Positions 14,230 through 35,317 of a stretch of DNA of 64,000 nucleotides are shown piece after piece. The DNA lies in contig JASBSS010000007.1 in NCBI GenBank assembly GCA_030148805.1, forward strand, positions 124,001 to 188,000, read 5' to 3'. Under the pieces are notes generated by a model that saw only the letters and a program-made list of their open reading frames with translations, ran no database searches and was not told where the DNA came from. A program made the position numbers and the translations under genes. The DNA is from Thiogranum sp. (GTDB taxonomy: Bacteria; Pseudomonadota; Gammaproteobacteria; DSM-19610). The stretch's first letter is position 1; the number at the start of each line of letters is the position of its first letter.

Positions 14230-14240
14230 GGCGCCAAGTT

Positions 14241-14552: not shown

Positions 14553-14599
14553 AGCGCACCTATTTTCATATCAGGGAATTACAGGATCTTTCAACGATT

Positions 14600-16056: not shown

Positions 16057-17163
16057 CTAGACCCCCCCTTGCCTGGCGTGCGTATCTGCCTCGTCACGCG
16101 AGTTGGCCGCTGGGAACGACAGGGTCAATACAGCTCCACCTTGGGCGCCATTGGCCGCACTCACTGCCCCACCATAGTTTTCTACAATCAGCTTGGTCAA
16201 AGCCAGACTGATCCCCAACCCGCGATCATGGTGCTGGATATCAGCGATACCGAACTCCTTGAAATGCGAACCCGCCAAGCTCACGTCGAAACCCGGCCCG
16301 CTATCTTCAAGTTGGATTACGTGATGCTCTTTATCTTCGGATAAAAATTCCCTGATCGCGACACTGCCACCGTCGGGCGAGAATTTGACCGCGTTCTCCA
16401 TCAAAAACACCAGAGCCTTCTGTAAGAGCTGGTAATTTCCGTGAATGCTGAAGTTCTCTTCCTGCTGTACGTTCACGGTAATATCTTTTGAACGGATGTC
16501 TTCGGCCACCAACTGTTGGGCGTCATCGATCAAATCCCGGGAAAAGACTTCGCTGACCGGATATTCCTCCGATTTCTTCAGTGCGCTCAATAACAGAATA
16601 CGATCGATTTTTTCGTGCAGATACCGTCCCGCGTTTAAGATTTCCCGAGTCATCTCCCTATGCTCCTCACTCAAGGCATCATCGTTGAGCAAAGCCGAGG
16701 AGAAGCCGATAATTGCATTCAACGGCGTGCCCGCCTCGTGCGTAATCAGCGAAAGAAAATCTGTCTTAAGACGATCCACCTCTTCAATAGCTTTCAGCTT
16801 GGCGTAGACGTTCACCTTCGCCAACAACTCCATATGGTCGAACGGCTTCGTGATATAGTCGTCCGCACCGGCAGCATAGCCATCGAGGCGCTCCTCGATC
16901 CGTGCTTTCCCTGAAACAAGAATTATCTTGATGTAGCGAAAGCTGTCGTGTTTTCTTATTCGACGACAAACCTCCAGGCCGTCGATACCCGGCATCATGA
17001 CATCGAGCAATACGATATCGGGGCCGAACGAAGATACCTGCTCTAAGGCCGTCTCGCCGTTGGCCGCTACGTCAAGAAGGAACTCATCGGATAGTACTTC
17101 TTCCAGAATTCGTATATTCCGTGCGTCGTCATCAACTATCAGCACTTTTGTTTTGGTACCCAT
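16057..17163 (-). CDS. Receiver-histidine kinase (response regulator with kinase output)
   Basis: This 368-residue cytoplasmic protein has a receiver domain first (VLIVDDDARNIRILEEVL, IVLLDVMMPGIDGLEVC, then YITKPFDHMELLAKV). A HisKA domain follows with the H box FLSLITHEAGTPLNAIIGF, where the usual HE(L/I)RTP is HEAGTP. An ATPase domain completes it (LENAVKFSPDGGSV, LEDSGPGFD, DRGLGISLALTKLI). AGGAG lies about 9 bases before the ATG. It follows the membrane kinase gene by 75 nt and was probably acquired as a pair with it, forming a phosphorelay step. Confidence 0.87.
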   Translation of the reverse strand: MGTKTKVLIVDDDARNIRILEEVLSDEFLLDVAANGETALEQVSSFGPDIVLLDVMMPGIDGLEVCRRIRKHDSFRYIKIILVSGKARIEERLDGYAAGADDYITKPFDHMELLAKVNVYAKLKAIEEVDRLKTDFLSLITHEAGTPLNAIIGFSSALLNDDALSEEHREMTREILNAGRYLHEKIDRILLLSALKKSEEYPVSEVFSRDLIDDAQQLVAEDIRSKDITVNVQQEENFSIHGNYQLLQKALVFLMENAVKFSPDGGSVAIREFLSEDKEHHVIQLEDSGPGFDVSLAGSHFKEFGIADIQHHDRGLGISLALTKLIVENYGGAVSAANGAQGGAVLTLSFPAANSRDEADTHARQGGV

Positions 17164-17238: not shown

Positions 17239-18861
17239 TCAGGCAGCTTCCAATGCCGGTATATTAAACGTCATTCTTGTCCCCCCTTCTTCGCGATTTT
17301 CGGCCCGGATCCACCCGTGATGCCCTCTTTCAATTATCTCTTTACAAATGGGCAGGCCCAACCCCGTACCGCCGGCATTGGTTTGTGTCTTGCTACTCTG
17401 AGCAAAAGGGCTGAAGATACTATCGAGTTCGTCCTCCGGTATACCCACCCCCTGGTCTGACACGCTCAAGCTAACGGAATCGTCTTGCATATAACTGACC
17501 TCGACCTCGATGAGCGAATTCTTCGGACTGAACTTGACGGCGTTAGAAACAAGATTCCTAATCACTTGCGCCACCCTGTTTTCGTCAAAAACAATCAATT
17601 TATGAACGTCCATACTGTTAACCACAACTTCAATATTTTTCTCCTCCAACAAGCCCTCGAACTCATTCAAAACGATATGCACCGTATGAAAGATATCGGA
17701 CTTATTATATTCGTAGGTCATCTTTCCCGCGCGCAGCTTTGACAGATCAAGCAGGTCGTTCAGCAATCTCAATAATTGACTGCCGCTGTCGTGTATTTCC
17801 TGAAAGTACTGGTGCAACTTTTCCTTCGACACACGATCCAGCTTTCTCATCCCGAAACTGGCAAAACTGAGAATGCCATGCAAAGGCGTGCGCAGCTCGT
17901 GAGACATGTTTGCCAGAAACGCCGACATCGCGCGTTCGGCGACCAGAGCTGCGTCTCGCGCCTCTATCAAGTCACGCGTCTGCTCGTCCACCATATCCTG
18001 TAGATGATCCCGATACCTAATCAGCTGTTGCTCCGCCTGATTGCGCTCCTCCATCTCCCGCAACAGGGCCGCGTTCTGGTGGTCAAGTCGTGTAGTCCGC
18101 TCACCAAGAACCGACATCATCTTGTTGAATGCCTGACTCATGTTCAACATCTCCTTCGAGCCGCGCAGACTCGAGCGCACGTCGACGGCCCCCTGTTCGG
18201 CCTCCTTCATTAAGAGGGCCAGGTCGTTGAGTGGCCGCGTAACGCGGGCCGTCAGCCACTGCAAGAGGAACAACAGAATCGCGGCGAAAATGAACGCGCT
18301 CGTGAAATTATCGAAAAATATAGACCGTTGCGTTGCGTACAAACCGGACTTATCCAGAACGACGTGCACATACCCGATTAATTTTGGCTCCACTCTATCC
18401 AGTGAAAAGGGTGATTCCTCGTTCTCCTCCTGGCCTGATTCGTACACCGGCGCCAAAAAATGCCAGGCACTGTTCGTTTCATGCGCCAATCCATGATCAG
18501 CGCGCAAGCGGGGTACGGGTGGCGGGACCCAATCTATCGGCTCCCCTTTATCCAACAACAGCGTGCCGGCTTTATCGTAAATCGCCACGTGTTTAACGGC
18601 AGGGAAGCCCAATGTGGTCCTGGCGGCTTCGCGTGCATTCTCACCGTGCCCGTACAGTAATGCCAAGGTGCTCTGACGGGCGAAACTCATCGTAATCTGG
18701 CTACCTTCCTCGATAATCTGTCCAAGAATATTTCTACTTGCCAACCAGCTGTTGGCAAATGCACCTGCCACGGCAAAGCATAGCACCGCAATGGCGACTA
18801 CGAAGATCAGTTGACTTTGAACTCTCCATAATCTTGGCGAGCTGAGTCGCGGCTTATTCAC
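17239..18861 (-). CDS. Membrane sensor histidine kinase with periplasmic domain and HAMP
   Basis: This 540-residue kinase has a first membrane helix at residues 15-40 (LIFVVAIAVLCFAVAGAFA), then a periplasmic domain of about 130 residues. That domain has the sequence LGFPAVKHVAIYDKAGTLLLD, a CHASE8-like, single-Cache pattern. A second helix lies near 185-205 (SAFIFAAILLFLLQW). HAMP, coiled coil, HisKA (ANMSHELRTPLHGILSFAS) and ATPase (NAVKFSPKNSLIEV, VSDQGVGIPEDE, GTGLGLPICKEI) domains follow. It starts at a GTG behind AGGGGAG. The gene for a periplasmic binding protein ends 25 nt upstream, which suggests that the binding protein delivers the ligand to this sensor. Confidence 0.88.
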   Translation of the reverse strand: MNKPRLSSPRLWRVQSQLIFVVAIAVLCFAVAGAFANSWLASRNILGQIIEEGSQITMSFARQSTLALLYGHGENAREAARTTLGFPAVKHVAIYDKAGTLLLDKGEPIDWVPPPVPRLRADHGLAHETNSAWHFLAPVYESGQEENEESPFSLDRVEPKLIGYVHVVLDKSGLYATQRSIFFDNFTSAFIFAAILLFLLQWLTARVTRPLNDLALLMKEAEQGAVDVRSSLRGSKEMLNMSQAFNKMMSVLGERTTRLDHQNAALLREMEERNQAEQQLIRYRDHLQDMVDEQTRDLIEARDAALVAERAMSAFLANMSHELRTPLHGILSFASFGMRKLDRVSKEKLHQYFQEIHDSGSQLLRLLNDLLDLSKLRAGKMTYEYNKSDIFHTVHIVLNEFEGLLEEKNIEVVVNSMDVHKLIVFDENRVAQVIRNLVSNAVKFSPKNSLIEVEVSYMQDDSVSLSVSDQGVGIPEDELDSIFSPFAQSSKTQTNAGGTGLGLPICKEIIERGHHGWIRAENREEGGTRMTFNIPALEAA

Positions 18862-18886: not shown

Positions 18887-19876
18887 CTACTTTGCCGGAA
18901 ACACCAGATCCACGTACGGATCATGGCGCAGATCAATCTCAATACCCAGGCGATTTGCGGTGCGTATGTTCACCGCTGTACCGAGATCCTCGAGCAACGC
19001 GACGCCGCGCGCCCTGCAACCGCCGTCGGCACATTCTCTGACAAGCCGGGCGAGGCGCACTCCCAGTTTTTCGTTATCCGGGTACACGGAAAACAGAACG
19101 CCGTGCTTTACGTGCGTCAACTGATCAGAAAATACAAACAGACGCCGGGCCCAGGCACGCTTGAGTATCAATGTCAGAACAGCACCGGAATCTATCACCG
19201 CAGGATCGCGCAACAGCCAAATCGCCTCGTTAGCGGGATCACTCTCGTTAAGCACGCGTCTGTACAGAACCGCTGCGTCACTCAGATTTCGTGCGGGCAA
19301 GGCCACCAGTTTGATTCCCAAATGGGCGGCCGACCGCTCAGCAACTTCCACCAACCCGGCGCTACGTTCGGGATCAAACACTACTGTCACGGTTTTCACA
19401 GCGGGGAAGAAATGCCGCAGACGGGTAAATAAGCTGGTGGGACTCGGCACAAAACTGATGGTCGGTATAGCGCTGGTCTCGCCCGGCTGCATGAGGACCG
19501 CGCCTGCCGCAACGGGAACCTTCGAAATGAACGGTGATGCGGCGCGTACGCCAGCCCGTCCCAGACCGATGACGCTGTGGCAGCCCGAAAGCGCGACGCC
19601 GGGGTTCGCCGCATCCAATTCCTCCTTGTCAGTGACCGGCAGGCGAAGCACCGCCGAATTTCCGGCGCCTTCTTCGATTCCCGTCATTATTTCTTCCAAT
19701 ACAATACTATAAGGCTCGCGAACTTGCGGGTAGAGTACCGCGATACAGCGCCCTTCGGCCCACGCAGCGGATGACGGATCCGCGCAGGCAACGAGCCAGA
19801 GCCAACAACAGTTCAGTATATACCTCAATCTCAGAATTTCCCGGACATTCAAACACGCGATGAAGGTTCGCACCAC
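18887..19876 (-). CDS. Periplasmic ABC-type substrate-binding protein, signalling context
   Basis: This is a protein of about 329 residues with a signal peptide (ILNCCWLWLVACADPSSAAWA). The fold resembles the ABC_sub_bind family (PF04392): CIAVLYPQVREPYSIVLEEIMTG, PTISFVPSPTSLFTRLRHFFPAVKTVTVVFDPE, then a C-terminal IRTANRLGIEIDL. No permease or ATPase gene is near. The next gene is a membrane histidine kinase in the same operon, so the protein probably works as a periplasmic ligand sensor rather than in transport. The frame opens with a GTG without a strong ribosome-binding site, so the exact start is uncertain; a TTG about 20 codons in is an alternative. Confidence 0.75.
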   Translation of the reverse strand: MVRTFIACLNVREILRLRYILNCCWLWLVACADPSSAAWAEGRCIAVLYPQVREPYSIVLEEIMTGIEEGAGNSAVLRLPVTDKEELDAANPGVALSGCHSVIGLGRAGVRAASPFISKVPVAAGAVLMQPGETSAIPTISFVPSPTSLFTRLRHFFPAVKTVTVVFDPERSAGLVEVAERSAAHLGIKLVALPARNLSDAAVLYRRVLNESDPANEAIWLLRDPAVIDSGAVLTLILKRAWARRLFVFSDQLTHVKHGVLFSVYPDNEKLGVRLARLVRECADGGCRARGVALLEDLGTAVNIRTANRLGIEIDLRHDPYVDLVFPAK

Positions 19877-19935: not shown

Positions 19936-21678
19936 TTACGCCTTCTCTATAAGGAAATCTTCAATAATCAATGCGTCAAGACCGGTCGTATAGAACGTCG
20001 CGATCGCATCTTCCACTGAGTGAATGATGGGTTTTCCCATCACATTGAAACTGGTATTCAAGAGCAGCGGCACACCCGTAATCGCATGAAACGCCCGAAT
20101 CAGGTCGTGATACTTCTTGTTCCACTGCTCCTTAACGGTTTGCAATCTCCCTGTGCCGTCCACATGAACCACTGCCGGGACCTTGTGGCGCACTTCTTCC
20201 CTGAACACAAGCGTTCTCTCCATATAGGGCGATTCCTGATAATTGATAAAGTACTCGTCGCCATAATCATGCAAAATGGATGGCGCAAAAGGCCGGAATT
20301 CCTCGCGGAACTTGACCAACGCGTTGATTCTGTCTTTCATATCGATCGGCCTGGGATCTGCAAGAATAGAACGATTGCCCAGGGCTCGTGGTCCGAACTC
20401 CGCTCGATCCTGAACCCAGCCGATGATTTTCCCCTCGCTCAACAACTGGGCCGCGCGCTCGCACACCCGGCCCGGCAGTTCCTCTAGGTTTTGTATGCGA
20501 CCGAATCGCCGCACGTTATCGATAGTTTCCGTCGACATCCTTGAACCCAAATAGGCGGACTGGAAATCCGGCCGCGGACGGGCCTCCGGGTGATCGTCAT
20601 AGAAGGCCAGAAGCGCCGCGCCAATAGCGTTGCCATCGTCCCCCGGCGCGGAGTAAACATGAAGATTGTCGAATCCAGTCTGATCGAGGATCTTTCCATT
20701 GTAGGCCGAGTTCAAGGCACAGCCGCCACCCAAAACAAGATTCGAGGAGATACCTCGACCATACAAATTGTCCAATAGCTCGGTCATCAATTCAGAAAAG
20801 ACCAGTTGGCCCGTATAGGCTAGATCCGCAACCTCATCGACGGGCGAGCCGGGTTTCCGCGCATACGAAAAAAGCTCGGCAAGGGCCTGCGGCCGGCCGG
20901 CGGGGCACTGCAGCCCCAGGCCTTCGACTTCTATGCAGGCGTGCAACAGTTCATAGATTCTGTCATTACGCTTGCCGTACGGTGCCAGCCCCATGACCTT
21001 CCACTCTTCGCCACGCCAGATATCGAAGCCGCACAGGCCACACAGCAAGCCCCCGTAGAAGACACCCAGGCTGCGGTTCGCGTCGCCATCCAGGGAGCTC
21101 GACTCGACGTGAGCGATTTTTCCGTTCTTATAGGAAAAGAAACTGAGGCTGACACCTTCACCAAAGCCGTCAACGATCGCACACGCCGCGTCGGTGAAGG
21201 GGCTGGTATAACAAGCCGCGGCGGCGTGCGTAAAATGGTGATTGTACGACTTGGTTACGATCTTTTTGTTCAAATTGGACTGGCACCGAAAGGCCAGGTG
21301 CTGGCCCGCCTCCGCTATATTGCCGGATATAAACGAATGCACGTACGAGATTATTCCGACATCCGCCGCCACTGCCGCGGAGGTGGCTTCATTCTCCGCG
21401 CTTTGCAATCGTTGGTTTGCCGCTTTTTCTTCACGTTCAAATATTTCCGGCGCCTTCTTACTCCAGGTTTTCGCCACGAGCAACTCCGCATCGGGCTCGC
21501 AGTAAGCTTCTACCAATCCGTCGATCCTGATCAGGTCGTCCGGCGGTGAATTCAACGCCCGTTTGTTTTGTAGATAACGTTCGGTCGCCTCCGCGAAAAC
21601 GACCTTCCCCGCGGAATCGACAATAGCCAGCGCATTATCGTGGCCCGTACAGGCCAAGCCGATGTAGTTACGTTTCAT
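19936..21678 (-). CDS. NodU/CmcH/TobZ-type O-carbamoyltransferase
   Basis: This 580-residue enzyme belongs to the family that moves a carbamoyl group from carbamoyl phosphate, through carbamoyl-AMP, to a hydroxyl of a natural product. The Kae1-like N-domain begins YIGLACTGHDNALAIVD and has the metal-binding NHHFTHAAAACY motif. GGGCALNSAYNGKIL and RAEFGPRALGNRSILADPR are family hallmarks. The C-terminal part (FREEFRPFAPSIL, PLLLNTSFNVMGKPI) is complete. The ATG at 21678 is preferred to the upstream TTG because the family starts at this point. It is the last enzyme of the six-gene operon, so it likely tailors the operon's product. The acceptor is unknown. Confidence 0.9.
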   Translation of the reverse strand: MKRNYIGLACTGHDNALAIVDSAGKVVFAEATERYLQNKRALNSPPDDLIRIDGLVEAYCEPDAELLVAKTWSKKAPEIFEREEKAANQRLQSAENEATSAAVAADVGIISYVHSFISGNIAEAGQHLAFRCQSNLNKKIVTKSYNHHFTHAAAACYTSPFTDAACAIVDGFGEGVSLSFFSYKNGKIAHVESSSLDGDANRSLGVFYGGLLCGLCGFDIWRGEEWKVMGLAPYGKRNDRIYELLHACIEVEGLGLQCPAGRPQALAELFSYARKPGSPVDEVADLAYTGQLVFSELMTELLDNLYGRGISSNLVLGGGCALNSAYNGKILDQTGFDNLHVYSAPGDDGNAIGAALLAFYDDHPEARPRPDFQSAYLGSRMSTETIDNVRRFGRIQNLEELPGRVCERAAQLLSEGKIIGWVQDRAEFGPRALGNRSILADPRPIDMKDRINALVKFREEFRPFAPSILHDYGDEYFINYQESPYMERTLVFREEVRHKVPAVVHVDGTGRLQTVKEQWNKKYHDLIRAFHAITGVPLLLNTSFNVMGKPIIHSVEDAIATFYTTGLDALIIEDFLIEKA

Positions 21679-21722
21679 AGATTGTCTCGCTCCGTCACAT
21701 GATGCGTCTTCGATAAGGGTGC

Positions 21723-22514
21723 TCAACGGCCTGCGTAGACGGGCAGCCCCCGGGTGCTGTATCCCCCGTCGACGTCGATTACAGCGCCCGTGATAAGCCC
21801 CCCGGCCTCAGAAGCAAGGTAGGCGGCCAGTTTGCCGACGTCGGACGGTTCGCCTATACGGCCCAATGGATGATAGGTCTCGTAAAACGCGTAGCTGTTT
21901 TCGACGACATCCTCGGGCATCCCCATCGCCGCGAAGGCATTCGTCCGGATAAAGCCGGGGTTGATGGCATTCACGCGCACCCCGCCAGGCGCCCATTCGG
22001 CCGATAAGGCCTTGGTCATCTGCACGATGGCGCCTTTGATAATACCGTAAACAGGTAATCCCAATAGCTGTCTGTTCGCGACCGCGGAACCGATGTTGAT
22101 AACGCATCCGCCCTTCTCACGCAGATACGGGTGGGCGGCACGCGCCAGCAGGAATGTATGGGTAATATTCGAGGTGAAAGCCTCTTCGATTTGCTCGTCA
22201 GAGAGAACATCGGCCGGCAACGCGCCACTGATGCTCAGCGCATTGTTTACCAGGACGTCCAGTCGTCCGAAATAGTCTATGGTCGATGTGACCAGATCCC
22301 GGGCGCCACCGCGCTGTTCCAAGTTGAACTCCACACCGAGCGCCTCCCCACCCAGCGCCTTGATATCTTCGGCCGCCTCCTTCGCATCCGCCGCCTGTCG
22401 GCTGGTGACAACCACGCTGAACCCTGATGTTGCCAGTTCGCGCGCGATACTCCGACCAATCCCTTTGGTCGAACCGGTCACAACTGCGACCTTGTTTCCA
22501 TGTTCCTCAGTCAT
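21723..22514 (-). CDS. Short-chain dehydrogenase/reductase (SDR)
   Basis: This is a classical SDR of 263 residues. It has the cofactor motif TGSTKGIGRS, the catalytic Ser in INIGSAVANRQ and the catalytic Tyr-Lys pair in PVYGIIKGA. The structural NNAG motif is changed to NNAL. The C-terminal ITGAVIDVDGGYST is typical. The ATG at 22514 has AAGG about 8 bases upstream; the longer frame reads through the TonB gene's 3' end. Arg/Ser residues after the second strand (VVTSRQAA) suggest NADPH use. Within the operon it would reduce a keto group formed by the upstream condensing enzymes, before carbamoylation. Confidence 0.9.
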   Translation of the reverse strand: MTEEHGNKVAVVTGSTKGIGRSIARELATSGFSVVVTSRQAADAKEAAEDIKALGGEALGVEFNLEQRGGARDLVTSTIDYFGRLDVLVNNALSISGALPADVLSDEQIEEAFTSNITHTFLLARAAHPYLREKGGCVINIGSAVANRQLLGLPVYGIIKGAIVQMTKALSAEWAPGGVRVNAINPGFIRTNAFAAMGMPEDVVENSYAFYETYHPLGRIGEPSDVGKLAAYLASEAGGLITGAVIDVDGGYSTRGLPVYAGR

Positions 22515-22566
22515 AATAGAACCTTCATCAAGAGCGCCCCGCCTGGGCGGTTCAAGGGACGGCGTC

Positions 22567-24753
22567 TTAGAACAGATACCTGAGCTCCCCGAGGAAATGT
22601 CGTCCGGCAAGAGGGAGATCGTTGGGTATCGACGCCGTGGGAATACCTGAAAGACTCGGCTCGCGCGCATTCGCATCGAACAGATTGCGAGCTATGAATG
22701 CGAGCTCCCAATTATCCTTGATATATTTGCGGCGCAGCACGACATCGACCAGGGTGTAATTGGCAACATCGGAGCGATTGTCACCTGGCGAGCGTTGCCG
22801 ACCTGCCACATAATTGAGCTGTGGCGTAAACTGCCAGTTTGGCAGAAATGTCCACTGCGCCCGTAGATAGATCTGATGACCGGGAGCGTTGCCCGCATCC
22901 TGTCGCGCCCTTGTATCTTCGGATTTCTGGTAGGCGTAGTTCCCAAGTAGACGAAAGTTACGTGCAAGGCGCCATTCAGCCCCTAACTCCAGACCATAAC
23001 CCTTCTGCCTGCCGGTATTCTGCGCTGTCGCGCCCGCGCCGCCAGGAACGAACTGTATGATGTCGCTCCAATTGTAACGAAAAAAGCTAAGATCGAGATC
23101 CAGGTCACCCGTATGGCGGTAGGAAAACGCCAACTCCAGGGTTTCTATGGTTTCCGGGTCTAGATTGGGATTACCGATCGCGGCCGGGTTGTTTTTTAGC
23201 CTCGCCTCGGCGAACGAAGGGGCCCGGAAGGCACGACCATAAAGCAGCTTGGTAGTCAGATCGTAGCTTGTGGACCACACGAGCGCAGCACGTGGATTTA
23301 CCGTATCGCCGAAATCGGAATAATCGTCATAGCGAATACCTGCGGTGATCTCCCAATCGCTGGCAAAACTCCAGACATCCTGTATGAATGCGTAATAGTT
23401 ATCTCGGCCATCCTCGGGAAGGAAAGTAAACGGACTATCGGAACGATCGGTGAGCGTGCCGTCAATGGGCGAAACCGTTCCATCAATCACGCCCGGACCG
23501 AAATTCTGCCGTGCTTTCACCTTAGTTATCTCGCTCACGGCAACGCCCGTACCTACCCGTATCCGGTGGCGCGGGAATCCAGTGTAGAAAGCTGATGTGT
23601 CAAAACGGTAATGGCGCTCGTCCACCCATGGGTTACCAATAAAACCATCGGTAAAAGTAACCAGTCCCACCGTGTTAACCGGGTCGACGTTGCCATCCGA
23701 ACCGATCGGCAGGACGGTTCCCGGCGGAAACAATGTCGCGTTACGATCCACCCTCATGCTGGTTTGAAAAAAGCTCAACTGCGCCTGAATATCGATATTT
23801 TTGGAAAACTCGGCGTTGTGATAACCCAGGTCCAGGTTCCACCGGTCGCTGGAAAAGCGGTTGCCGGGATCGAGCGCCTGCGCGATACCCGCACCGTTTC
23901 CCCAGTTTTGCCGACGCTGAAAGCCCGTACGCAACCGCCAGGGGCCTCGGGCGACGTCCAGGCGCGCATCCAGATTATCGCGTTGCAGGTTGACCGGCCC
24001 GGGCGCCAACGATGCGTTGCTGCCAAATACCGCATCCAAAGCAGTTTGCCCATCGGCATCAATGGTTTCGCTCTGACCATCCGTGGCGTGGTACTCCAAC
24101 GCCAGGGCCACCTCGAAGTCGCCCCAACGGGCGCCGTGCAACGCCCACGCGTCGCGCGTGTCGAAGCTTCCCGCGCGGCCACCGATTTCCGTACCCGCGA
24201 TATCCTGACTGGTTTTGGTGATGATGTTGATCACCCCCGCGAAGGCATCAGCGCCGTAGATCGCTGACCCTGGTCCGCGTATCACCTCGACACGCGCGAT
24301 ATCCTCCACTGGCATACCACCCCATACCTGGGAGCGATTACCAAAATACAAATTGGTAATCGGGATGCCGTTTATCATTACCAGTACCTGGGGGTTGAAG
24401 TCCGAATAGATGCCCCGGATGGTGTAAATCGGACTGTAGCCGGTACTGCTCCTGGCCACATGCAGACCCGGGACCGTTTCCAGTATTTCATCCAGATCGG
24501 TTGCGCCTATCGCTTTTATATCCTCGGCTGTAACTACCGTCGTCACCGCGGGTGCTTTTTCGATGGGCTGCTGGCTTCCCGTTGCGATGCTGATCATCTC
24601 GGTATCGCCATAAAGCATTAGCAGCGCTTCCTCGTCGCGGTCGTCAGACGCCTGCGCCGTTACGGCCATTAACAGAAAACTGAACATCAATGGAACGGCG
24701 ATTCCAGCTAAACGATACCCGGAGGTTTCACTCGGATTTATGCAAATACCCAT
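22567..24753 (-). CDS. TonB-dependent outer-membrane receptor
   Basis: This receptor has 728 residues with a signal peptide (LMFSFLLMAVTAQAS). The N-terminal plug spans residues about 60-180 (VVTAEDIKAIGATDLDEIL, YTIRGIYSDFNPQVLVMING, RVEVIRGPGSAIYGADAFAGVINI). A 22-strand-type barrel follows and ends in a C-terminal aromatic residue (GELRYLF). It resembles the BtuB/ferri-catecholate group in its plug, but the ligand cannot be read. It sits in the middle of a biosynthetic operon, 19 nt after a citrate-synthase-like gene and 52 nt before the SDR. It may therefore take up the operon's own product or its metal complex. Confidence 0.92.
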   Translation of the reverse strand: MGICINPSETSGYRLAGIAVPLMFSFLLMAVTAQASDDRDEEALLMLYGDTEMISIATGSQQPIEKAPAVTTVVTAEDIKAIGATDLDEILETVPGLHVARSSTGYSPIYTIRGIYSDFNPQVLVMINGIPITNLYFGNRSQVWGGMPVEDIARVEVIRGPGSAIYGADAFAGVINIITKTSQDIAGTEIGGRAGSFDTRDAWALHGARWGDFEVALALEYHATDGQSETIDADGQTALDAVFGSNASLAPGPVNLQRDNLDARLDVARGPWRLRTGFQRRQNWGNGAGIAQALDPGNRFSSDRWNLDLGYHNAEFSKNIDIQAQLSFFQTSMRVDRNATLFPPGTVLPIGSDGNVDPVNTVGLVTFTDGFIGNPWVDERHYRFDTSAFYTGFPRHRIRVGTGVAVSEITKVKARQNFGPGVIDGTVSPIDGTLTDRSDSPFTFLPEDGRDNYYAFIQDVWSFASDWEITAGIRYDDYSDFGDTVNPRAALVWSTSYDLTTKLLYGRAFRAPSFAEARLKNNPAAIGNPNLDPETIETLELAFSYRHTGDLDLDLSFFRYNWSDIIQFVPGGAGATAQNTGRQKGYGLELGAEWRLARNFRLLGNYAYQKSEDTRARQDAGNAPGHQIYLRAQWTFLPNWQFTPQLNYVAGRQRSPGDNRSDVANYTLVDVVLRRKYIKDNWELAFIARNLFDANAREPSLSGIPTASIPNDLPLAGRHFLGELRYLF

Positions 24754-24772
24754 TAATGATCCGATAAATTAC

Positions 24773-25606
24773 TCACTGTTTGACTTCGTCCGTCTTCAAC
24801 GAGGATTTCCACTTTCGCCGGGAACATCCCTTGTAATCTATCCGATCGCAACGAAATGGGAAGAATGCCCCCTCCGGCTTATTTAGCGCATCGGCATAAC
24901 AGGGAAACATCCCCGCCGAAAAACACAACACCATAAAGTGGTAATACGCCTGACGGGTCAGACCCTGGTCGGCAGCCAACGCCGCCAGCAGCGCGGCGAT
25001 ATTCATTTTGAAGCGCCATCGGCCTTGCAGAAGCACCCGCTCGATATCGAATGCCAGCTTCACATAGGCTCCACTTCCAAACCCGAGCTCCTCGGCAAGC
25101 GCAAGCATCGGTTTGATGCGTTCATCCGCGTTGATCAGAGGCCGCCCATACCCGGCGATGCCGCGGCAACTCTTCAGTTCGGTTGCAACCACATCTTGTA
25201 GATCGGCACCTCGTTGCAACAACTCTCGCGCGCGAAACAAGAAGTCAATCGAGCGGACTACCGGGCGGCCGCCGTATATCGAGGCCTCCGACGCCATGGT
25301 TGCCGCACCTATCGCCAGCGCCGCGGTGCTTCTGGCGGTCCCGGCCAGCGCGGCGATTCGGTTGTTCCACAGGCGTGGGTCAGGGTAACTGGTACAGATT
25401 GTCCAGATGCCTTCGAATAATCTCAGTTGTTTGTCATCAAACGAGCGGCCGGTAATCCCGTACAGCAACAAGCCCATCCAACTGATGCCGTTGAGTTCAT
25501 TGAACAGATCCTTGCCCCGGAACACAACGCGCTCACCGGGAAACCAGGCTCCCATCCCGGTCACCCATCGGTCCTCGTTATCGAGCAAGGTTTGCTCGCC
25601 GTTCAT
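24773..25606 (-). CDS. Citrate-synthase-like protein, second of a pair, catalytic His positions changed
   Basis: This 277-residue protein has the length and fold pattern of citryl-CoA lyase/citrate synthase small forms. Matching blocks are GISWMGLLLYGITGRSFDDKQLRLF, the run of alanines in AALAGTARSTAALAIGAATM and RGIAGYGRPLINADERIKPM, which corresponds to the GFGHR-Y block of citrate synthase. By eye, the first active-site His position (LHGGAN block) is Tyr111 in IYGGR and the second (GHR) is Arg155. It overlaps the upstream paralogue by 4 nt (ATGA). The two probably form a heteromer. Its reaction is unknown; it may be a binding or catalytic half of a condensing enzyme. Confidence 0.68.
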   Translation of the reverse strand: MNGEQTLLDNEDRWVTGMGAWFPGERVVFRGKDLFNELNGISWMGLLLYGITGRSFDDKQLRLFEGIWTICTSYPDPRLWNNRIAALAGTARSTAALAIGAATMASEASIYGGRPVVRSIDFLFRARELLQRGADLQDVVATELKSCRGIAGYGRPLINADERIKPMLALAEELGFGSGAYVKLAFDIERVLLQGRWRFKMNIAALLAALAADQGLTRQAYYHFMVLCFSAGMFPCYADALNKPEGAFFPFRCDRIDYKGCSRRKWKSSLKTDEVKQ

Positions 25607-26433
25607 CGGCTAGCACGCCCGTCGCCACGGGGGACGGGCCCTGGGTCGTTGATCAGGTCGAGACCGTCCTTGAAAAAAGGATATTTTTTATAACCGTAGC
25701 CCTGTTGCTCCAACGCATGGGCCGCGGCTCCGGGTAGCCGTAGCAACAAACACAACATTTCGCCCTGCGGGGCATCAAAACCAAGATCGACCAGCGCGGC
25801 CGCTGTCACCCCGGTCATCGCCAGCGGCAAGCCGGCGGCACGTTCGAGTTCACCCCGGTGTTGCTGCAACCATGGTAGGTTGTCGCCGTCGCTGCGCACG
25901 GACAGATACTCCAAGCTCCGCCGAACCGGGGTGGCGCAGCTTACACCGCGAGGATCGAATCCCGGCGGATGCTCCGCCGGCGGCCACACGTCGGCTTGTT
26001 CCGCTTCAGGGGTGCGCGACAAGTGCCCTGTCCAGGTGTTCAGATCTCGCCCGCATGCCCGCCAGACATCCATGGCCAAGGCCACTTCGTGGGCACCTCC
26101 CGCCTGGCCCGCGCCCACGGCCAGCGTTGCCGCCAAACAGGCGGCGTGACTGGAACCGCCGACACCGGCGTTCATGGCAGCGCGGACACTGTGATCGCGC
26201 GGGCCCGGATTGGCGATCGCAACGGCGAGCCCCTCAAGCAGTCCCGCCTGACCAGCGCTCGGGGGTTCCAGTTTGAACAACAGGTACAGGTATTCCACCC
26301 AGCTGATCTTACCGAGCAGGTCTCCATACACGTCGAAGCCGGCGCAGTAACAGCTGGCGGCCGCAAATGGGTTGTCCGGTTCCGGCACTTCGTCCCAGAT
26401 GCGGGTACGAATGGTTTCCTTGTCGCTACTCAA
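25603..26433 (-). CDS. Citrate-synthase-like protein, first of a pair
   Basis: This is a 276-residue relative of the previous protein. The shared blocks are LGKISWVEYLYLLFKLEPPSAGQAGLLEG and NAGVGGSSHAACLAATLAVGAGQAGGAHEVALAM, the latter aligning with the HGGAN block of citrate synthases. Here GGAHE at 112-116 replaces HGGANE. The C-terminal GAAAHALEQ matches the citrate synthase GW-AH-LEQ region. Overlaps of 4 nt with the genes on both sides show strict translational coupling with the TPP enzyme and the paralogue. Such enzymes join or split acyl-CoA and keto acids. Which reaction occurs here is inference only. Confidence 0.68.
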   Translation of the reverse strand: MSSDKETIRTRIWDEVPEPDNPFAAASCYCAGFDVYGDLLGKISWVEYLYLLFKLEPPSAGQAGLLEGLAVAIANPGPRDHSVRAAMNAGVGGSSHAACLAATLAVGAGQAGGAHEVALAMDVWRACGRDLNTWTGHLSRTPEAEQADVWPPAEHPPGFDPRGVSCATPVRRSLEYLSVRSDGDNLPWLQQHRGELERAAGLPLAMTGVTAAALVDLGFDAPQGEMLCLLLRLPGAAAHALEQQGYGYKKYPFFKDGLDLINDPGPVPRGDGRASR

Positions 26434-28280
26434 CGCGGGCCTTCCAACACTTTCGCCCGCACACCCATTGGCGGCACTTCTTCCGGGTCGATACGCACGT
26501 CGATAAGGGTCGGACCCGGGCCGGCGATTATCGCCGCGATATCGATCTTTTGTAGGTCCTGCGGCGAATGAACGAGATAGGCTTTAGCGCCCAGCGCTTC
26601 GGCGTAGGCACAGTAGTCGATTTCAGGCAGCTCAAAGCCGACGGGCTCGGCCTTCGTCAGGCGCTGGCCGTGCTTGACCATGCCCAAGGCGCTGTCGTTG
26701 AGGACTACAAAAATCACCGGCAGGCGCTCCTGAATGGCGACGGTGATTTCCTGACCGTTCATCAACAGACTGCCGTCTCCGGTAATGCACACCACCGGCC
26801 CCCCGTGTTTACCCAAGGCCGTGCCAATCGCCGCACCCAGCGCCCAGCCCATGGCGGCGAAGTCCAGACTGGCACGAAACAATCCGGCATTGGTACGGCG
26901 TTTCCCCCCCATGCGCCGATCGCGCGGATGCAGATAATGGATCGCCCATGCGACGCTGTTCCCGGTGTCAGCCAGGAAACAGGTGTTCGCCGGAAACAGA
27001 CGCGTCAGCTCCCGCATGAGACGTTGGGGCTTGATGGGGGCGGTGTCGTCATAACACTTGCTTTCGGCGTCAAGCTCGAAACGCGGTTTTGGCTCTGCCC
27101 ACGCCCGTGATCCGGCGCCACCAGGCCACGGCAGGCCGCCCATGCGCCTGGCATTAACAGACGCCTGCCCTATGCCTGTCGCGGCGCGGGCGTGCAGCTC
27201 TTCGATCACATATTGAAAAATATTGTTGATCCGTCCAAGGACGTGCAGCCTGGCCATGGGCGAGCCGGAGAAATTCCCTTCTATCGAGTCGACGTGTATC
27301 AAGCGGTTGTTGAGTAACGCGCCGCCGTCCCAACCGTTACTTGCCCATTCGCCAAGGCGGGTTCCAATGACCACGACGGTATCGACGTCCGGCTCTAATA
27401 GCGCCGCCCGGGCGCCCTGATGGCCGGCAAAGCCGAATACTCCGCGAAACAGGGGGTGATTGGCATTGACCAGGCCCTTGCCCTGCGGCGTTGTGACAAT
27501 AACCGCGTTGATAGCCACCGCCAGCTCGAGAATCGTGCCGATGGCCTCACTACAACCTCCACCGACAACCAATACCACCTTGGTGGCGTCGGCGACATAG
27601 TTGCACAAAGTCGCCACGGCGGCGATATCCACCAACGAAGGTTGATGCAGGAGTGCCTCAAGATCATAGGAACGCTTCGCTACCGGGGCCGGTTTACGCA
27701 GGAGGTCAACGGGGATGCTCAGATGAGCCGGACCACGCTCGGCTTGACAGGCGGCGCGAACCGCCGAGGCCAGTTTGTGTTCGAACTGATCGACATGCGA
27801 AACCAGAGTATTGTAACGCGTGCAGTACTGAAACATGCCTACGGTATTGACCCCGGTACAGGAAGAGTCCTGAAACGCATCCCGGCCGAAGTTCGTCATC
27901 GCCGTCTGCGCGGTGATGACCAGCAGCGGAACGTGGTTCGCATAAGCGCTGGAGATACCGGTAATCAGGTTGGTGGCGCCCGGACCGGTGGTGGCGCAAC
28001 AGACGCCGAGCGTACCGGTCTGGCGCGCATAGCCGTCAGCCATGAACGCGGCGCCGCTCTCATGGCGAGCGACCACCGCTCGCGGGCCACCGCGCCGCTC
28101 ACTGCGAGCCAGCGCATTGTATAGCGGCTCTATCGCGCCACCGGGAACGCCGAACACGAAGCCCGCGCCCAAGTCTTCGAGATAGCCCACCAGCAGGTCG
28201 CCGATCTCTGGCCCGCACTCCTTTTTATTTGGATACCGATCGAGGGAAAGAGTGGAGTGCTGGGGAGTCTCTACGCTCAT
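26430..28280 (-). CDS. TPP-dependent acetolactate-synthase-like enzyme
   Basis: This is a full-length TPP enzyme of 616 residues. The N-terminal pyrimidine-binding domain has the catalytic Glu in VVARHESGAAFMADGYAR and GPGATNLITGISSAYANHVPLL. A NAD/FAD-like middle domain follows, and the C-terminal pyrophosphate domain carries GDGSLLMNGQEITVAIQERLPVIFVVLND. NFGRDAFQD and GPAHLSIPVDLL are as in acetohydroxyacid synthases and relatives such as sulfoacetaldehyde acetyltransferase. No small regulatory subunit is nearby, and a catabolic or biosynthetic role in this operon fits better than branched-chain amino-acid synthesis. It is the first gene, 109 nt from the promoter. Confidence 0.88.
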   Translation of the reverse strand: MSVETPQHSTLSLDRYPNKKECGPEIGDLLVGYLEDLGAGFVFGVPGGAIEPLYNALARSERRGGPRAVVARHESGAAFMADGYARQTGTLGVCCATTGPGATNLITGISSAYANHVPLLVITAQTAMTNFGRDAFQDSSCTGVNTVGMFQYCTRYNTLVSHVDQFEHKLASAVRAACQAERGPAHLSIPVDLLRKPAPVAKRSYDLEALLHQPSLVDIAAVATLCNYVADATKVVLVVGGGCSEAIGTILELAVAINAVIVTTPQGKGLVNANHPLFRGVFGFAGHQGARAALLEPDVDTVVVIGTRLGEWASNGWDGGALLNNRLIHVDSIEGNFSGSPMARLHVLGRINNIFQYVIEELHARAATGIGQASVNARRMGGLPWPGGAGSRAWAEPKPRFELDAESKCYDDTAPIKPQRLMRELTRLFPANTCFLADTGNSVAWAIHYLHPRDRRMGGKRRTNAGLFRASLDFAAMGWALGAAIGTALGKHGGPVVCITGDGSLLMNGQEITVAIQERLPVIFVVLNDSALGMVKHGQRLTKAEPVGFELPEIDYCAYAEALGAKAYLVHSPQDLQKIDIAAIIAGPGPTLIDVRIDPEEVPPMGVRAKVLEGPR

Positions 28281-28388
28281 AAGTCCTTAATTCAACTGCC
28301 TATCCCAGTCGTCCATCTTTCCCTGGACTCTTGTCACGGCGAAGTGTCACTTGACGCCATTGTAATAATTATCACATCGTATTCTACG

Positions 28389-28417
28389 TTTATATCGCTT
28401 TATTCGATTTTGGTCAA
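28389..28417 (-). promoter_or_regulatory. Sigma-70-type promoter of the TPP/citrate-synthase-like/carbamoyltransferase operon
   Basis: On the minus strand TTGACC is followed, after 17 bases, by TATAAA, close to the consensus. It is the only such match seen in the 300-bp gap before the TPP gene. The leader to the start codon would be about 100 nt. Confidence 0.65.
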
Positions 28418-28426
28418 ATCTGACCA
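28411..28426. promoter_or_regulatory. Operator-like palindrome over the -35 box
   Basis: TGGTCAAATCTGACCA is an inverted repeat with 6-bp arms and a 4-base spacer. It covers the -35 element of the operon promoter, so a bound protein would block polymerase. The regulator is not identified; the two HTH-receiver proteins of this window are candidates. Confidence 0.55.
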
Positions 28427-28580: not shown

Positions 28581-29186
28581 CTATTTTTTACCCGACGCCG
28601 ACACCGGTATGGCGTCGATGTGTTCACGCACTATCACCTCAAGCACGTCGAAAGGAATCGGTTTTTGAAAAAGCCGCAGACCGGTGACCGGTGTGCCTCG
28701 AGCCCTTATTTCCTCCTCTGTCAACGCGCTGACAACCAGAATCAGGCATTTTTTCAGCTCAGGCATACCTTTCAGGGCTTTGATCATCTGAAATCCATCC
28801 ATCCCCGGCATCATCAAGTCGGTGATAACAACGTCGGGCAGGTACCGGCCTATCTGGATCAGGCCCTCGAACCCGTCCCTCGCGCACACCAGCTGGATGG
28901 GTAGTTCGCGCGCTGCAAACTGCGCCTGATAAAGCTTGAGCAGGCCCTCATCGTCCTCTACCACCACCGCCGTCACCCGGTCATCGGATGGGGACTCGTC
29001 AACTGCAGCATGTTGCTGATTCAACAAGTAATCCACGGAACGCCGGGTGATTCGTCGGTGCCCGCCGCCGGTTTTCCAGGCACGCAACAAGCCACTTTCG
29101 GTCCATAGCTGAACGGTGCTGAGCGCCACGCCCAGCAACTTCGCCGCCTCGCTGCTGGTCAGGAATTCGCTGTTTTTCGCTGTCAT
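28581..29186 (-). CDS. HTH (MerR/excisionase-like)-receiver response regulator, second copy
   Basis: This 201-residue protein has the same unusual order as the one at 11766-12359. The N-terminal helix-turn-helix (TSSEAAKLLGVALSTVQLWT, then TGGGHRRITRRSVDYLL) is followed by a receiver domain. The receiver has the acidic pair in VVVEDDEGLLKLY, the phospho-acceptor in VVITDLMMPGMDGFQMIK and the conserved Lys in LFQKPIPFD. It is the last gene of the chemotaxis operon, 41 nt after cheB. That suggests the che phosphorelay also has a transcriptional branch, with CheA or another kinase as the phospho-donor. Confidence 0.82.
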   Translation of the reverse strand: MTAKNSEFLTSSEAAKLLGVALSTVQLWTESGLLRAWKTGGGHRRITRRSVDYLLNQQHAAVDESPSDDRVTAVVVEDDEGLLKLYQAQFAARELPIQLVCARDGFEGLIQIGRYLPDVVITDLMMPGMDGFQMIKALKGMPELKKCLILVVSALTEEEIRARGTPVTGLRLFQKPIPFDVLEVIVREHIDAIPVSASGKK

Positions 29187-29227: not shown

Positions 29228-30307
29228 TCATCCTTCCAAGGCTTTATGGATTTTTCTCGCCACCGCGCGCAACGGGACGATGTCGTCCACGCAGCCGCGT
29301 GACACCGCCTCGCCCGGCATACCCCAAACGACACTGGTTTTCTCATCCTGCGCGATGGTATGGGCGCCAGCCTGTTTCATCTCCAGCATTCCTCTGGCGC
29401 CGTCATCGCCCATACCGGTCAAAATGACGCCTATCGCATTGGGGCCGATGTTCTGCGCCACGGAACGAAACATGACATCGACGCTAGGCCGGTGACGATT
29501 AACCGCCGGTCCGTCACTGAGCTTGCAGCGAAACCGTGCCCCATCGCGGACAACCAGAAGATGTCGGTTACCAGGCGCGATGTATACATGGCCCGGCACG
29601 ATCTGTTCACCATCCCTGGCCTCGCTGACAGTCATCGGCGAACAGCGGTTCATCCGCTCGGAGAACGGTTTACTGAATGCCTCCGGGATATGCTGTGTTA
29701 TTACCATAGCCGGGCTATCGGCTGGCATCACTTCGAGGACTTCCCGAATGGCCTCCGTACCACCGGTTGAAGCTCCTAAGGCGATAAGTTTGTCGGTCGT
29801 CCGGTAGTGCCTCGTCTTGATCGCCGGCAGGACAGCGTCGGCGCTCTGCCGCTCGCTTATGGTGGTCAACGCACGCACCCGCGCTTTGGCAGCCGCCCTA
29901 ACCTTGGCTATCACTTCATCAGCGTAATGACTAAAGGTGTGCGCAATGTCCACCGTAGGCTTGGCGATCACGTCGACAGCACCCAGCTCCAGAGCATCAA
30001 GCGTAATTTCGCTACCCTTCTGCGTCAGGGTAGATACCATCACCACCGGCATTGGGCGCAATCGCATCAGATTGCGTAAAAAGGTCACCCCGTCCATGCG
30101 TGGCATTTCCACATCCAGGGTCAGCACATCTGGCTTGAGCTGCTTTATCTTCTCACGCGCCACCAATGGGTCCTGGGCCGTACCCACAACCTGAATGTCA
30201 GGGTCCTGCTCGAGCATTTCCGTGAGCATAGAGCGGATCAACGCCGAGTCGTCCACCACCAGCACGCGGATTCTGTTGTTCTGCCTGGCTTGTGTCGATT
30301 GCAACAT
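29228..30307 (-). CDS. cheB: CheB, chemoreceptor glutamate methylesterase/glutamine deamidase
   Basis: CheB removes methyl groups from chemoreceptor glutamates and deamidates glutamines. It acts after phosphorylation by CheA. The receiver domain covers residues 12-130 ([14 protein letters not shown], Asp65 in [12 protein letters not shown]). The esterase domain from about residue 170 has the Ser-His-Asp triad in [21 protein letters not shown] and [11 protein letters not shown]. It lies in the order cheR-cheD-cheB. The receptor with a CheR/CheB-tether motif is encoded four genes upstream. Confidence 0.95.
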
Positions 30308-30319
30308 ACAGTAGGTTTC

Positions 30320-30961
30320 CTAGAACAGCTCGATGACGCCTTCGATATGGGTATGTGTAATTTCCTGCTGGTAGGCCTGTTCCTGCTTGATGACCTCCTT
30401 ATTACCCATCTTCTTGACTCTCACTTTGCCCGAGGCCGGAAAATACACCACGCGTCGCGGCCAGGTGCCGCCCAAATCCTCGCCGCTGATGTCGAAACCC
30501 TCATTGTGCAGGTAATCCTTCACGAAACGAATATTCTTGCCGCCGATATCGGTGCTCATGTTCGCCAGTACGCGGCCGCCGCCGGTGAGCTTTACTTCGA
30601 GATTTTCGCGCCGACCTCCGGCCTTGATAATTTCGTTGATAAGCTGCTCCATGGCAAAAGAACCATAGCGCGCGGCCTCGGTCAGGTCACCAGCGTGTAC
30701 CTCGGAGTTCTTACCGGCTTCCGGCAACATAAAATGATTCATACCGCCGATGCCGAATATACGATCGCGGATACAGGCCGATACGCAGGAGCCCAATGAG
30801 GTAATCACCGCTTCGTCGGACCGGGTGACGTAAAATTCGCCCGGCAGTATTTTTGCCGCGAAGTGGCGCAGCGAGTTATCCCAGTAACGGCGGATATGCT
30901 CGAACCCCCTCAACGCCGAGGGCTGTATATGGCCTTCAGGCGCCTTGACCAAACCTCTCAT
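30320..30961 (-). CDS. cheD: CheD, chemoreceptor glutamine deamidase
   Basis: CheD deamidates receptor glutamines and in some species interacts with a CheC-type phosphatase. This 213-residue protein has the catalytic Cys in LGSCVSACIRD with a His in GGMNHFMLPEA. It also has the family's KLTGGGRVLANMSTDIGGKNIRFVKDYL block. No cheC or cheX gene is seen here. It is flanked closely by cheR (12 nt) and cheB (12 nt). Confidence 0.95.
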   Translation of the reverse strand: MRGLVKAPEGHIQPSALRGFEHIRRYWDNSLRHFAAKILPGEFYVTRSDEAVITSLGSCVSACIRDRIFGIGGMNHFMLPEAGKNSEVHAGDLTEAARYGSFAMEQLINEIIKAGGRRENLEVKLTGGGRVLANMSTDIGGKNIRFVKDYLHNEGFDISGEDLGGTWPRRVVYFPASGKVRVKKMGNKEVIKQEQAYQQEITHTHIEGVIELF

Positions 30962-30973
30962 CGTCGACCTCGC

Positions 30974-31840
30974 TCAGCCCAGCTTACGGTACATTGTTTG
31001 ACCGATCAGCTCGAAACGATCGGACAATTTATGCATGTTCTCAGAGTGCCCGATGAACAGATAGCCGCCGGTGTGTAGAATGTCGGCATAACGGTCGAAC
31101 AGTTTCCGCTGGGTCGCCTTATCGAAGTAGATCACCACGTTGCGGCAGAAAATCAAATCGAAACTGCCCGTCATGGGCCAATCCTGCATCAGATTGAGTT
31201 GCTTGAAAGTAATCAGTGACTGCAAGGCAGGATCGACCCGCACCTGTTCTCCCGCGCCCGCCCCAACCGAGTGGAACCACTTATCGGCGCGCCTGCGTGG
31301 CATGCCCTCAATCCGTTGCGCTGCATAGCGTCCGCGCCTGGCCGATTCAACCACATTGGAATCCAGATCCGTAGCCAGAATTTTCAGATCCCAGTTTTGC
31401 AGCGACGGCATCGTCTCCTTGACCGTCATGGCGATCGAATACGGCTCCTCTCCGGTGGAACACCCGGCCGACCAGAACCGGATGCGGCGATCGGCGACAT
31501 GTCGCCGCATGGTCTCCGGCAACACCGTTTTCGCCAGATAGTCAAAATGATGTGGCTCGCGGAAAAATGCCGTCAGATTGGTCGTCAGGGCGTTGATGAA
31601 CTGGACCAGTTCAGGCCCGGCATCCGGCGACTCCAGGTACTCCAGGTAAGTGGAAAAATCACAAAACCGATGGGCACGCAGCCGCCGTGAAAGCCGACCG
31701 TAAACCAGGTCCCGCTTGCCTTCGTTAAGCGAAATTCCAGCCTGCTCGTATAATTTTTTCCGCACCGACTGAAAATCGCGGTCGGTAAAATGGAATTCGC
31801 GCTCTCGGTCTGTTTCTGATTTGGCCAACATACGAATCAC
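30974..31840 (-). CDS. cheR: CheR, chemoreceptor methyltransferase
   Basis: CheR adds methyl groups from S-adenosylmethionine to receptor glutamates. The 288-residue protein has the N-terminal helical domain and the Rossmann domain with RIRFWSAGCSTGEEPYSIAMTV, ILATDLDSNVVESARRGRY and DLIFCRNVVIYFD. The frame opens with GTG at 31840 behind GGAAG; an in-frame ATG at 31831 is an alternative. It comes directly after the globin chemoreceptor, whose C-terminus carries a CheR-binding pentapeptide. Confidence 0.94.
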   Translation of the reverse strand: MIRMLAKSETDREREFHFTDRDFQSVRKKLYEQAGISLNEGKRDLVYGRLSRRLRAHRFCDFSTYLEYLESPDAGPELVQFINALTTNLTAFFREPHHFDYLAKTVLPETMRRHVADRRIRFWSAGCSTGEEPYSIAMTVKETMPSLQNWDLKILATDLDSNVVESARRGRYAAQRIEGMPRRRADKWFHSVGAGAGEQVRVDPALQSLITFKQLNLMQDWPMTGSFDLIFCRNVVIYFDKATQRKLFDRYADILHTGGYLFIGHSENMHKLSDRFELIGQTMYRKLG

Positions 31841-31984
31841 TGCTTCCCATGCGGGGTGTGGCCCCGGAAAATCACAACCGCCACGTTCGCAGATGCCTTG
31901 CCGCGGCGTCGCACGTGCCGATACAAAAGCCCGCAGCCGTAAGAAGCCAGGGCGGAGTACGACGTCCGCCCTGGGATACTCAGG

Positions 31985-35134: not shown

Positions 35135-35317
35135 AATCTATCCTGCCCATGCCAGTCCGCTGAGTATCCATATAACGAGGGAATAAGCTTCCCCAGACCC
35201 TTTCCGTGCCGTACCATCCCCGCGATGACTCTTCTCGTCAATCCACGCTGGCTCACTCATCTGCGTCCCCTTCCAACATTTGCTTGAAGAACCCCGTGGT
35301 AGACATGCGAATTTCAT

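Follow-up and report, generated by a model that had tools for sequence, protein, structure and literature searches.

A widespread bacterial gene module that groups a ThDP-dependent enzyme and two citrate-synthase-like proteins with a TonB-dependent receptor and a sensor

The subject of this study is a run of nine genes, all on the minus strand from 28280 to 16057, in a 64,000-nucleotide stretch of DNA (the window) from contig JASBSS010000007.1 of Thiogranum sp., a 3.78-Mb draft genome of 38 contigs (the window is from contig 25 of G000). The first gene (26430-28280) encodes a thiamine diphosphate (ThDP)-dependent, carboligase-like enzyme of the acetolactate-synthase superfamily (hereafter TPP), in which Pfam detects all three ThDP domains (TPP_enzyme N, M and C). 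It is followed by two proteins with the citryl-CoA-lyase fold, CS1 (25603-26433) and CS2 (24773-25606), a TonB-dependent receptor (22567-24753), a short-chain dehydrogenase/reductase (SDR; 21723-22514; adh_short_C2, E=5.2e-53) and a NodU/TobZ-type carbamoyltransferase (19936-21681). The run continues with a periplasmic binding protein of the ABC_sub_bind type (SBP; 18887-19876; PF04392, E=2.4e-9), a membrane sensor histidine kinase (HK; 17239-18861) with weak matches to sCache_4 and HAMP in addition to HisKA and HATPase, and a receiver-histidine kinase recognized by domain scan (REC-HK; 16057-17163).

TPP overlaps CS1, and CS1 overlaps CS2, by 4 nt; CS2 and the TonB receptor are separated by 19 nt, the receptor and SDR by 52 nt (SDR ATG at 22514), and SDR and the carbamoyltransferase by 41 nt when the latter is started at the ATG at 21681, or overlap by 4 nt when an alternative TTG start at 21726 is used. 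This bears out the tight packing of six coupled genes that an earlier note on this DNA had claimed. The operon boundary that it placed at 19936 is wrong, as SBP, HK and REC-HK continue on the same strand after gaps of 59, 25 and 75 nt; the sensor half was missed. The order SDR-carbamoyltransferase-SBP-HK-REC-HK is preserved in two further species of the genus. The genus members G013 and G016 have TPP-CS1-CS2 (with the receptor in G013) on one contig and the SDR to REC-HK series on another. Given the same-strand continuation and the gene order kept in G013 and G016, the operon most likely spans all nine genes, from 28280 to 16057. REC-HK is the last gene of the run, with the order kept in loci L134 and L135. 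In L135 an open reading frame (ORF) similar in length to the downstream neighbour in the window comes after REC-HK.

This operon belongs to a widespread bacterial gene module, whose conserved core consists of TPP, CS1, CS2, the TonB receptor, SBP and a sensor protein of the kinase or GGDEF-EAL type. A genome scan with a TPP alignment detected at least 534 relatives, of which the best 80 loci were kept and annotated by means of profiles derived from the gene clusters of these loci themselves (G013 and G016 are among them as L014 and L013, and were also read as L009 and L010). Where TPP is flanked on both sides by 9 kb or more (39 loci, the other 41 being dropped from this count), CS1 and CS2 are found in 37, the receptor in 36, SBP in 34, a sensor or output protein in 34, and the whole core within 12 kb in 33. 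In the full set of 80, which includes many short loci, CS1 is present in 67, CS2 in 62, the receptor in 58 and SBP in 45, and the order TPP-CS1-CS2-TonB-SBP-HK without a gap above 2.5 kb is seen in 21, with variants in further loci. The sensor or output proteins of the 39 loci belong to histidine-kinase clusters, with two exceptions: those of L042 and L073 match the L042 cluster alone, that of a HAMP-PAS-GGDEF-EAL protein lacking a kinase domain. TPP also occurs without CS, TonB, SBP or kinase genes in the available stretch (e.g. L023, L028, L033 and L079; some of these contigs are short), and such loci may represent a branch with another role.

A sample of 369 genomes of the class was searched at thresholds of 1e-150 for TPP, 1e-120 for the receptor, 1e-20 for SBP and 1e-50 for CS1 (weaker CS1 matches, in 8 of 49 genomes, were excluded from the co-occurrence count). 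TPP was recovered from 48 genomes, CS1 from 41, the receptor from 52 and SBP from 48; all four occur in 33 genomes and any of them in 62. TPP and CS1 occur together in 39 genomes, and one without the other in 9 and 2, respectively (Fisher p=1.6e-41, relatedness ignored), and every pair among the four proteins co-occurs at p<1e-31 under the same disregard of relatedness. In 33 of the 39 genomes with both TPP and CS1 the two genes are no more than 15 kb apart. The conserved co-occurrence in other genomes, which the earlier note had set as a test of its operon, is thus clearly seen outside this strain. A TPP gene is present at 1e-150 in 10 of 398 genomes sampled across the phylum. Five loci outside the class (L152-L156) were examined, and in two of these, from one family (L152 and L156; G397 and G403), the six core genes are reordered as TonB-CS1-CS2-TPP-SBP-HK. 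As the core genes recur in different orders, a functional link is favoured over shared ancestry of a single block. The nearest TPP genes in named records, among the best 80 of at least 534, belong to Thiogranum sp. and to a Thiohalobacter sp. metagenome-assembled genome (MAG), and the whole core is also found in records not labelled as MAGs, including Methylomonas koyamae, Dechloromonas hankyongensis and Porticoccus sp. W117. Plasmid or viral carriage of the module is not supported: a plasmid search with TPP returned nothing at 1e-60, one with CS1 returned only 7 distant records (at most 30.1% identity, five of them annotated as citryl-CoA lyase), and a peptide-pattern search of viral contigs returned no relative of CS2.

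The best profile match of both CS proteins is citryl-CoA lyase (6hxp; E=1.4e-18 for CS1 and 3.1e-15 for CS2), and the AlphaFold models (pLDDT 89.0 and 89.9) also retrieve 6hxp as the best Foldseek match, with TM scores of 0.67/0.72 for CS1 and 0.75/0.81 for CS2. Their best NCBIfam scores fall short of the cut-offs (54.7 against 261 bits and 49.3 against 245 bits). We take the His/His/Asp triad to be the catalytic residues of citrate synthase and citryl-CoA lyase. In alignment to 6hxp, CS1 retains the first histidine in 12/90 sequences, the second in 0/90 (one has a histidine in a neighbouring column) and the aspartate in 0/90, while in CS2 the second histidine is replaced by arginine in 86/86, no aspartate is present in 84/86 listed, and the first histidine position is ambiguous. 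Other positions are invariant, namely R79 in CS1 (90/90) and R78, W80, N82, R155, D161 and R163 in CS2 (86/86). Of these, R163 aligns with the arginine of the DPR motif, which in citrate synthase is a ligand of the substrate carboxylate. The invariance of these positions alongside loss of the catalytic residues shows strong selection on the CS pair, which probably does not act as a Claisen enzyme. Hence, CS1 and CS2 are, to judge from their residues, apparently catalytically dead citrate-synthase-like proteins, and the acyl transfer or cleavage that the earlier note had assigned to them is unlikely. In the 1.5-Mb genome G056, TPP and CS1 form one uninterrupted frame of 886 residues (L136:2276-4933); this natural fusion, a single case, points to a physical TPP-CS1 complex. 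The CS1 matches in G063, G075, G211 and G350 each contain one in-frame stop.

TPP itself has the conserved residues of a ThDP-dependent enzyme. E74, G501-S504 and N528-D529 are invariant in 26/26 TPP sequences, and the GDGS...ND motif is present; we take E74 to be the catalytic glutamate of ThDP enzymes and assign the roles of the GDGS...ND residues on the same presumption. The window protein scores below each of the 25 NCBIfam cut-offs shown, the best match being TIGR00118 with 285.5 bits against a cut-off of 538.35. The nearest solved structures are BbmA (E 2.3e-119) and CsmA (E 1.5e-106), for which an open-literature search found neither function nor products; PMC12247030 has no occurrence of 'bbm' or 'csma'. 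A further residue, G538, is also invariant (26/26) and aligns with a glycine in both BbmA and CsmA, at the residue altered in the deposited BbmA-G484F complex. The corresponding position is a glutamine in acetohydroxyacid synthase (AHAS) I of E. coli. Going by AHAS work, this pocket position presumably sets the size of the acceptor, and on that assumption TPP may use a bulky acceptor.

The sensor half is the strongest clue to function. In the window the binding-protein gene directly adjoins that of the membrane sensor kinase. No permease or ATPase for SBP is encoded among the 20 window proteins scanned, and no transporter gene lies inside the recurring block in the 80 loci; an ABC-ATPase-like cluster (no. 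23, assigned by eye) is seen in 5 of the 80, never adjoining SBP. The want of a transporter gene in the recurring block suggests that SBP is sensory and that an imported ligand would not readily be available to the enzymes, which argues against catabolism of an imported compound. The N-terminus of SBP resembles a lipoprotein signal (LVAC, by eye), and it may therefore be anchored in the membrane. SBP matches with a single in-frame TAG were seen in G040, G187 and G294, all of one genus. The TonB receptors have plug and barrel, and the STN signalling domain was detected in 0/20 of them, making FecA-type signalling unlikely. In the NCBIfam ranking of the window receptor the TOL_0244 family comes first, followed by siderophore, hemin, transferrin-type and B12 receptor models, all below cut-off. 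The window HK ranks TorS first and LuxQ fifth (NF041947, 164.7 bits against a cut-off of 1200), and is far below both cut-offs.

The domain make-up of the linked sensor proteins varies considerably between lineages. The kinases of L044, L058 and L015 combine HAMP, HisKA and HATPase with receivers, Hpt, GGDEF and EAL domains; the L029 kinase ends in a receiver and Hpt at its C-terminus, and that of L156 contains HAMP, PAS, HisKA, HATPase and a receiver. The tie to signal transduction persists in lineages without the TonB receptor. Among these, L031 and L045 have TPP and CS genes beside PAS-GAF hybrid kinases and a helix-turn-helix (HTH)-receiver protein. In L153 and L155, also of such lineages, TPP-CS1-CS2 is followed by a kinase of about 1.7 kilo-residues and a LuxR-type regulator. 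The L153 kinase has Pkinase, AAA, GAF and HisKA_3 domains, and the L155 counterpart shares 51% identity with it along its own length; L154 has TPP-CS1-CS2 with an ORF of 653 residues upstream on the opposite strand that matches the N-terminal part of these kinases. A FIST sensor gene is divergent from TPP in L057 (7968-9059) and L070 (5877-7022), where the CS pair is missing, and in L070 a GAF-PAS-GGDEF-EAL protein comes after it.

SDR, the carbamoyltransferase and, elsewhere, a methyltransferase are optional accessories rather than core components. The earlier note had treated the first two as core pathway steps; a same-strand SDR lies within 12 kb of TPP in 16 of the 80 loci and the carbamoyltransferase in none, so that the latter was rejected as a core component (outside the genus it was looked for around the 80 TPP loci). 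The window carbamoyltransferase has both the Carbam_trans_N and Carbam_trans_C domains and misses the NodU equivalog cut-off (161.7 against 1000). Its orthologs are 72-73% identical in two genus members with window-type TPP-CS1, where the gene order is the same, and other matches in the genus are 35-37% identical (48% for one piece), consistent with a lineage-specific accessory. In G150 the genes for TPP and the receptor have between them not the CS pair but an S-adenosylmethionine-dependent methyltransferase (L142:9506-10303), and in L143 an LCM-type methyltransferase adjoins the TonB gene, with no TPP in the stretch examined. L143 (1407-18648; G303) also has a mirror-image stretch in which TonB, SBP, kinase and methyltransferase occur twice with equal lengths, either an assembly artefact or a true inverted duplication.

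Upstream of TPP we read by eye the promoter-like sequence TTGACC-17-TATAAA (28417-28389), with the perfect palindrome TGGTCA-N4-TGACCA (28411-28426) overlapping its -35 box; together these span 28389-28426 on the minus strand. The promoter described in the earlier note is therefore present in the window, but no copy of its palindrome, with 2 mismatches allowed, was seen in any of 83 further upstream regions (two genomes being counted twice). Close relatives have a TTTGACCGAATACGAT-like upstream sequence in common instead (by eye), and the promoter with its palindrome was dropped as a regulatory signature because it is not conserved upstream of the relatives. Our promoter scan, which demands a T at the last -10 position and so skips this sequence, yielded 8 sites in total against 7.5 expected in shuffles, i.e. 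chance level. Upstream of TPP a Fur-box consensus score of at least 12/19 is reached in 21 of 77 loci, against 13.3 in dinucleotide-shuffled sequence, so that mediocre matches are slightly in excess; a score of at least 14/19 is reached in 0/77 upstream regions, where chance would give 0.6, and that of the window is 11. This scoring used a simple 19-position consensus. No strong site thus speaks for Fur-type control, and iron control of the module is at most weakly hinted at.

The gene for an HTH-receiver regulator (MerR/HTH_17 by domain scan; 28581-29186, minus strand) precedes the operon and is a candidate for its response regulator; a regulator of this type is also found immediately upstream of TPP in L011 and L012, from more distant genus members. 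Directly upstream on the same strand is a chemotaxis cluster (29228-37910) of CheB, CheD, CheR, a methyl-accepting chemotaxis protein (MCP) with globin and PAS domains, and a CheA-like kinase. The immediate downstream neighbours (12481-15802) encode a protein with an MCP domain (14600-15802) and a SpoIIE-type phosphatase that carries a receiver (12481-14427).

We tentatively propose, with confidence a little short of even, that TPP-CS1-CS2 makes a small carboligation product, and that the TonB receptor, SBP and kinase sense this product or a close relative of it, somewhat in the manner of LuxP-LuxQ. Signal synthesis coupled to perception would lead one to expect just such a set of few enzymes, variable in the tailoring step yet persistently tied to a sensor. 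TPP would join two carbonyl substrates, and CS1 and CS2, probably as a heteromer attached to TPP, would shape, deliver or control its reaction. Optional tailoring might then decorate the product, here by SDR and O-carbamoylation, elsewhere by SDR or a methyltransferase. The product would leave the cell; the dedicated TonB receptor would then carry it, or a close relative, through the outer membrane, SBP would bind it in the periplasm, and the adjacent membrane sensor protein would report it. What the data show is the content and order of the genes, their co-occurrence, the fold, the loss of catalytic residues, one TPP-CS1 fusion and the domains of some kinases; carboligation, export, the identity of the ligand with the product and the direction of signalling are inferred. 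In other loci the output would usually consist of enzymes of cyclic di-GMP (c-di-GMP) metabolism (GGDEF-EAL), and in the window of the receiver-kinase and perhaps the HTH-receiver regulator. A more far-reaching version has the ThDP carboligase and a dead-CS heteromer making the core signal of a new class of chemical signalling, with interchangeable tailoring enzymes (SDR, carbamoyltransferase, methyltransferase) creating lineage-specific dialects, and TonB re-import to a LuxPQ-like sensor controlling c-di-GMP; this we regard as conceivable but doubtful.

Several observations weigh against such a coupling. No exporter gene lies in the recurring block in the 80 loci, and a TonB receptor for a small diffusible product would be unusual. 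In L153, and likewise in its L155 counterpart, Pfam finds no membrane sensor domain in the partner kinase (that of L153 was scanned), and the product might there be detected intracellularly. Of the five core proteins measured, SBP has the lowest conservation, and it diverges faster than the enzymes (median pairwise identity 33%, against 43-54% for the enzymes); the receptor, at 46%, is better conserved than SBP, which speaks for the coupling. The CS pair is absent from two of the 39 well-flanked loci (L057 and L089) and the whole core is incomplete in six; among the 369 genomes, six have TPP or CS1 without the receptor and SBP, and five the receptor and SBP with neither TPP nor CS1. The 80 loci are the TPP genes most similar to the query and hence a biased sample; the class-wide search suffers less from such bias, although its p-values ignore the kinship that exists among its genomes. 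The last-mentioned five genomes also fit a purely environmental sensor, in which the TonB receptor, SBP and kinase detect an outside compound and TPP-CS1-CS2 are co-induced intracellular metabolic enzymes that make no signal. TonB receptors are well established as mostly importing environmental compounds, and TPP and the receptor are no more than 15 kb apart in only 28 of 39 genomes with both, partly owing to draft assemblies. However, the recurring block has no transporter gene that could supply the compound to the enzymes, TPP-CS is tied to quite different sensors in other lineages, and the tailoring enzymes vary within the operon; we consider this explanation less likely than the coupling of synthesis to sensing, but the likeliest of its rivals.

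It is improbable that the enzymes make a siderophore-like chelator that the receptor re-imports. The receptor within the operon, and the siderophore, hemin, transferrin-type and B12 receptor models that rank after TOL_0244, would suit a metallophore, and the slight excess of mediocre Fur-box matches keeps this explanation alive. Against it stand the lack of any strong Fur-box-like site, including in the window, the absence of nonribosomal peptide synthetase (NRPS) and NRPS-independent siderophore (NIS) synthetase domains from the ten window proteins scanned, the c-di-GMP output of most linked sensor proteins scanned, and the missing STN domain. Thus, of the secreted, TonB-linked product suggested in the earlier note, the signalling molecule is retained, whereas the siderophore is weakened by the absence of a strong Fur-box-like site and of a transporter gene in the recurring block. 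Least probable, and by our estimate very much so, is that CS1 and CS2 are active as a heteromer, a lyase of Claisen or other type whose active site is rearranged and which completes a conventional pathway. Their strongly conserved positions and the first-position histidine of some CS1 proteins would be compatible with activity, but the losses of the aspartate and of the second histidine described above speak against it. That the aspartate matters in this family is indicated by the titles of structures of D1026A and D541A mutants solved with substrates or citryl-CoA. The residue mutated in these is, we assume, the aspartate of the NVDG motif.

If synthesis of a signal is indeed coupled to its sensing, the module would represent new signal chemistry, a new role for a TonB receptor and a ThDP enzyme partnered by a pair of pseudoenzymes, and it would be linked to biofilm and motility control via c-di-GMP. 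Even if the compound sensed is environmental, the module would be an unnamed, testable sensor-enzyme unit. The pairing of a synthase with sensing by a binding protein and kinase is already known as a kind; to our knowledge there is no precedent for the synthase set, for the dead CS pair or for the dedicated TonB receptor. A search of open literature, in which the bulk of subscription papers and every bioRxiv preprint are missing, turned up no description of the module, in agreement with the earlier note, which knew of no described pathway with this gene set.

In comparison with known systems, the likeness to acetolactate/acetohydroxyacid synthase (IlvB/AlsS) and to BbmA/CsmA is that of the ThDP enzyme superfamily. 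Unlike in IlvB/AlsS, no ACT-type regulatory subunit is present among the window proteins scanned and the partner is the CS pair; TPP also lies below the curated family cut-offs shown for acetolactate synthase. With citryl-CoA lyase and citrate synthase the CS proteins share the fold, both predicted models matching 6hxp best, but here there are two dissimilar subunits that have lost the catalytic residues and score under the NCBIfam cut-offs. The FecA-FecR-FecI system similarly ties a TonB receptor to a regulatory output; however, the receptors of the module lack STN, and the neighbours in the window are SBP and a sensor kinase rather than sigma and anti-sigma factors. Both TorT-TorS and the autoinducer-2 (AI-2) system LuxS/LuxP-LuxQ likewise have, next to the gene of a membrane sensor kinase that is often a hybrid, one for a periplasmic binding protein. 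The module differs from the latter in its TPP-CS1-CS2 synthase, in the addition of a dedicated TonB receptor and in an output that is often GGDEF-EAL, and its binding protein, of PF04392, is presumably unlike the LuxP type. By the tests made the module is not a member of the LuxPQ family, and its closest working analogy would be LuxP-LuxQ equipped with another synthase and a TonB receptor.

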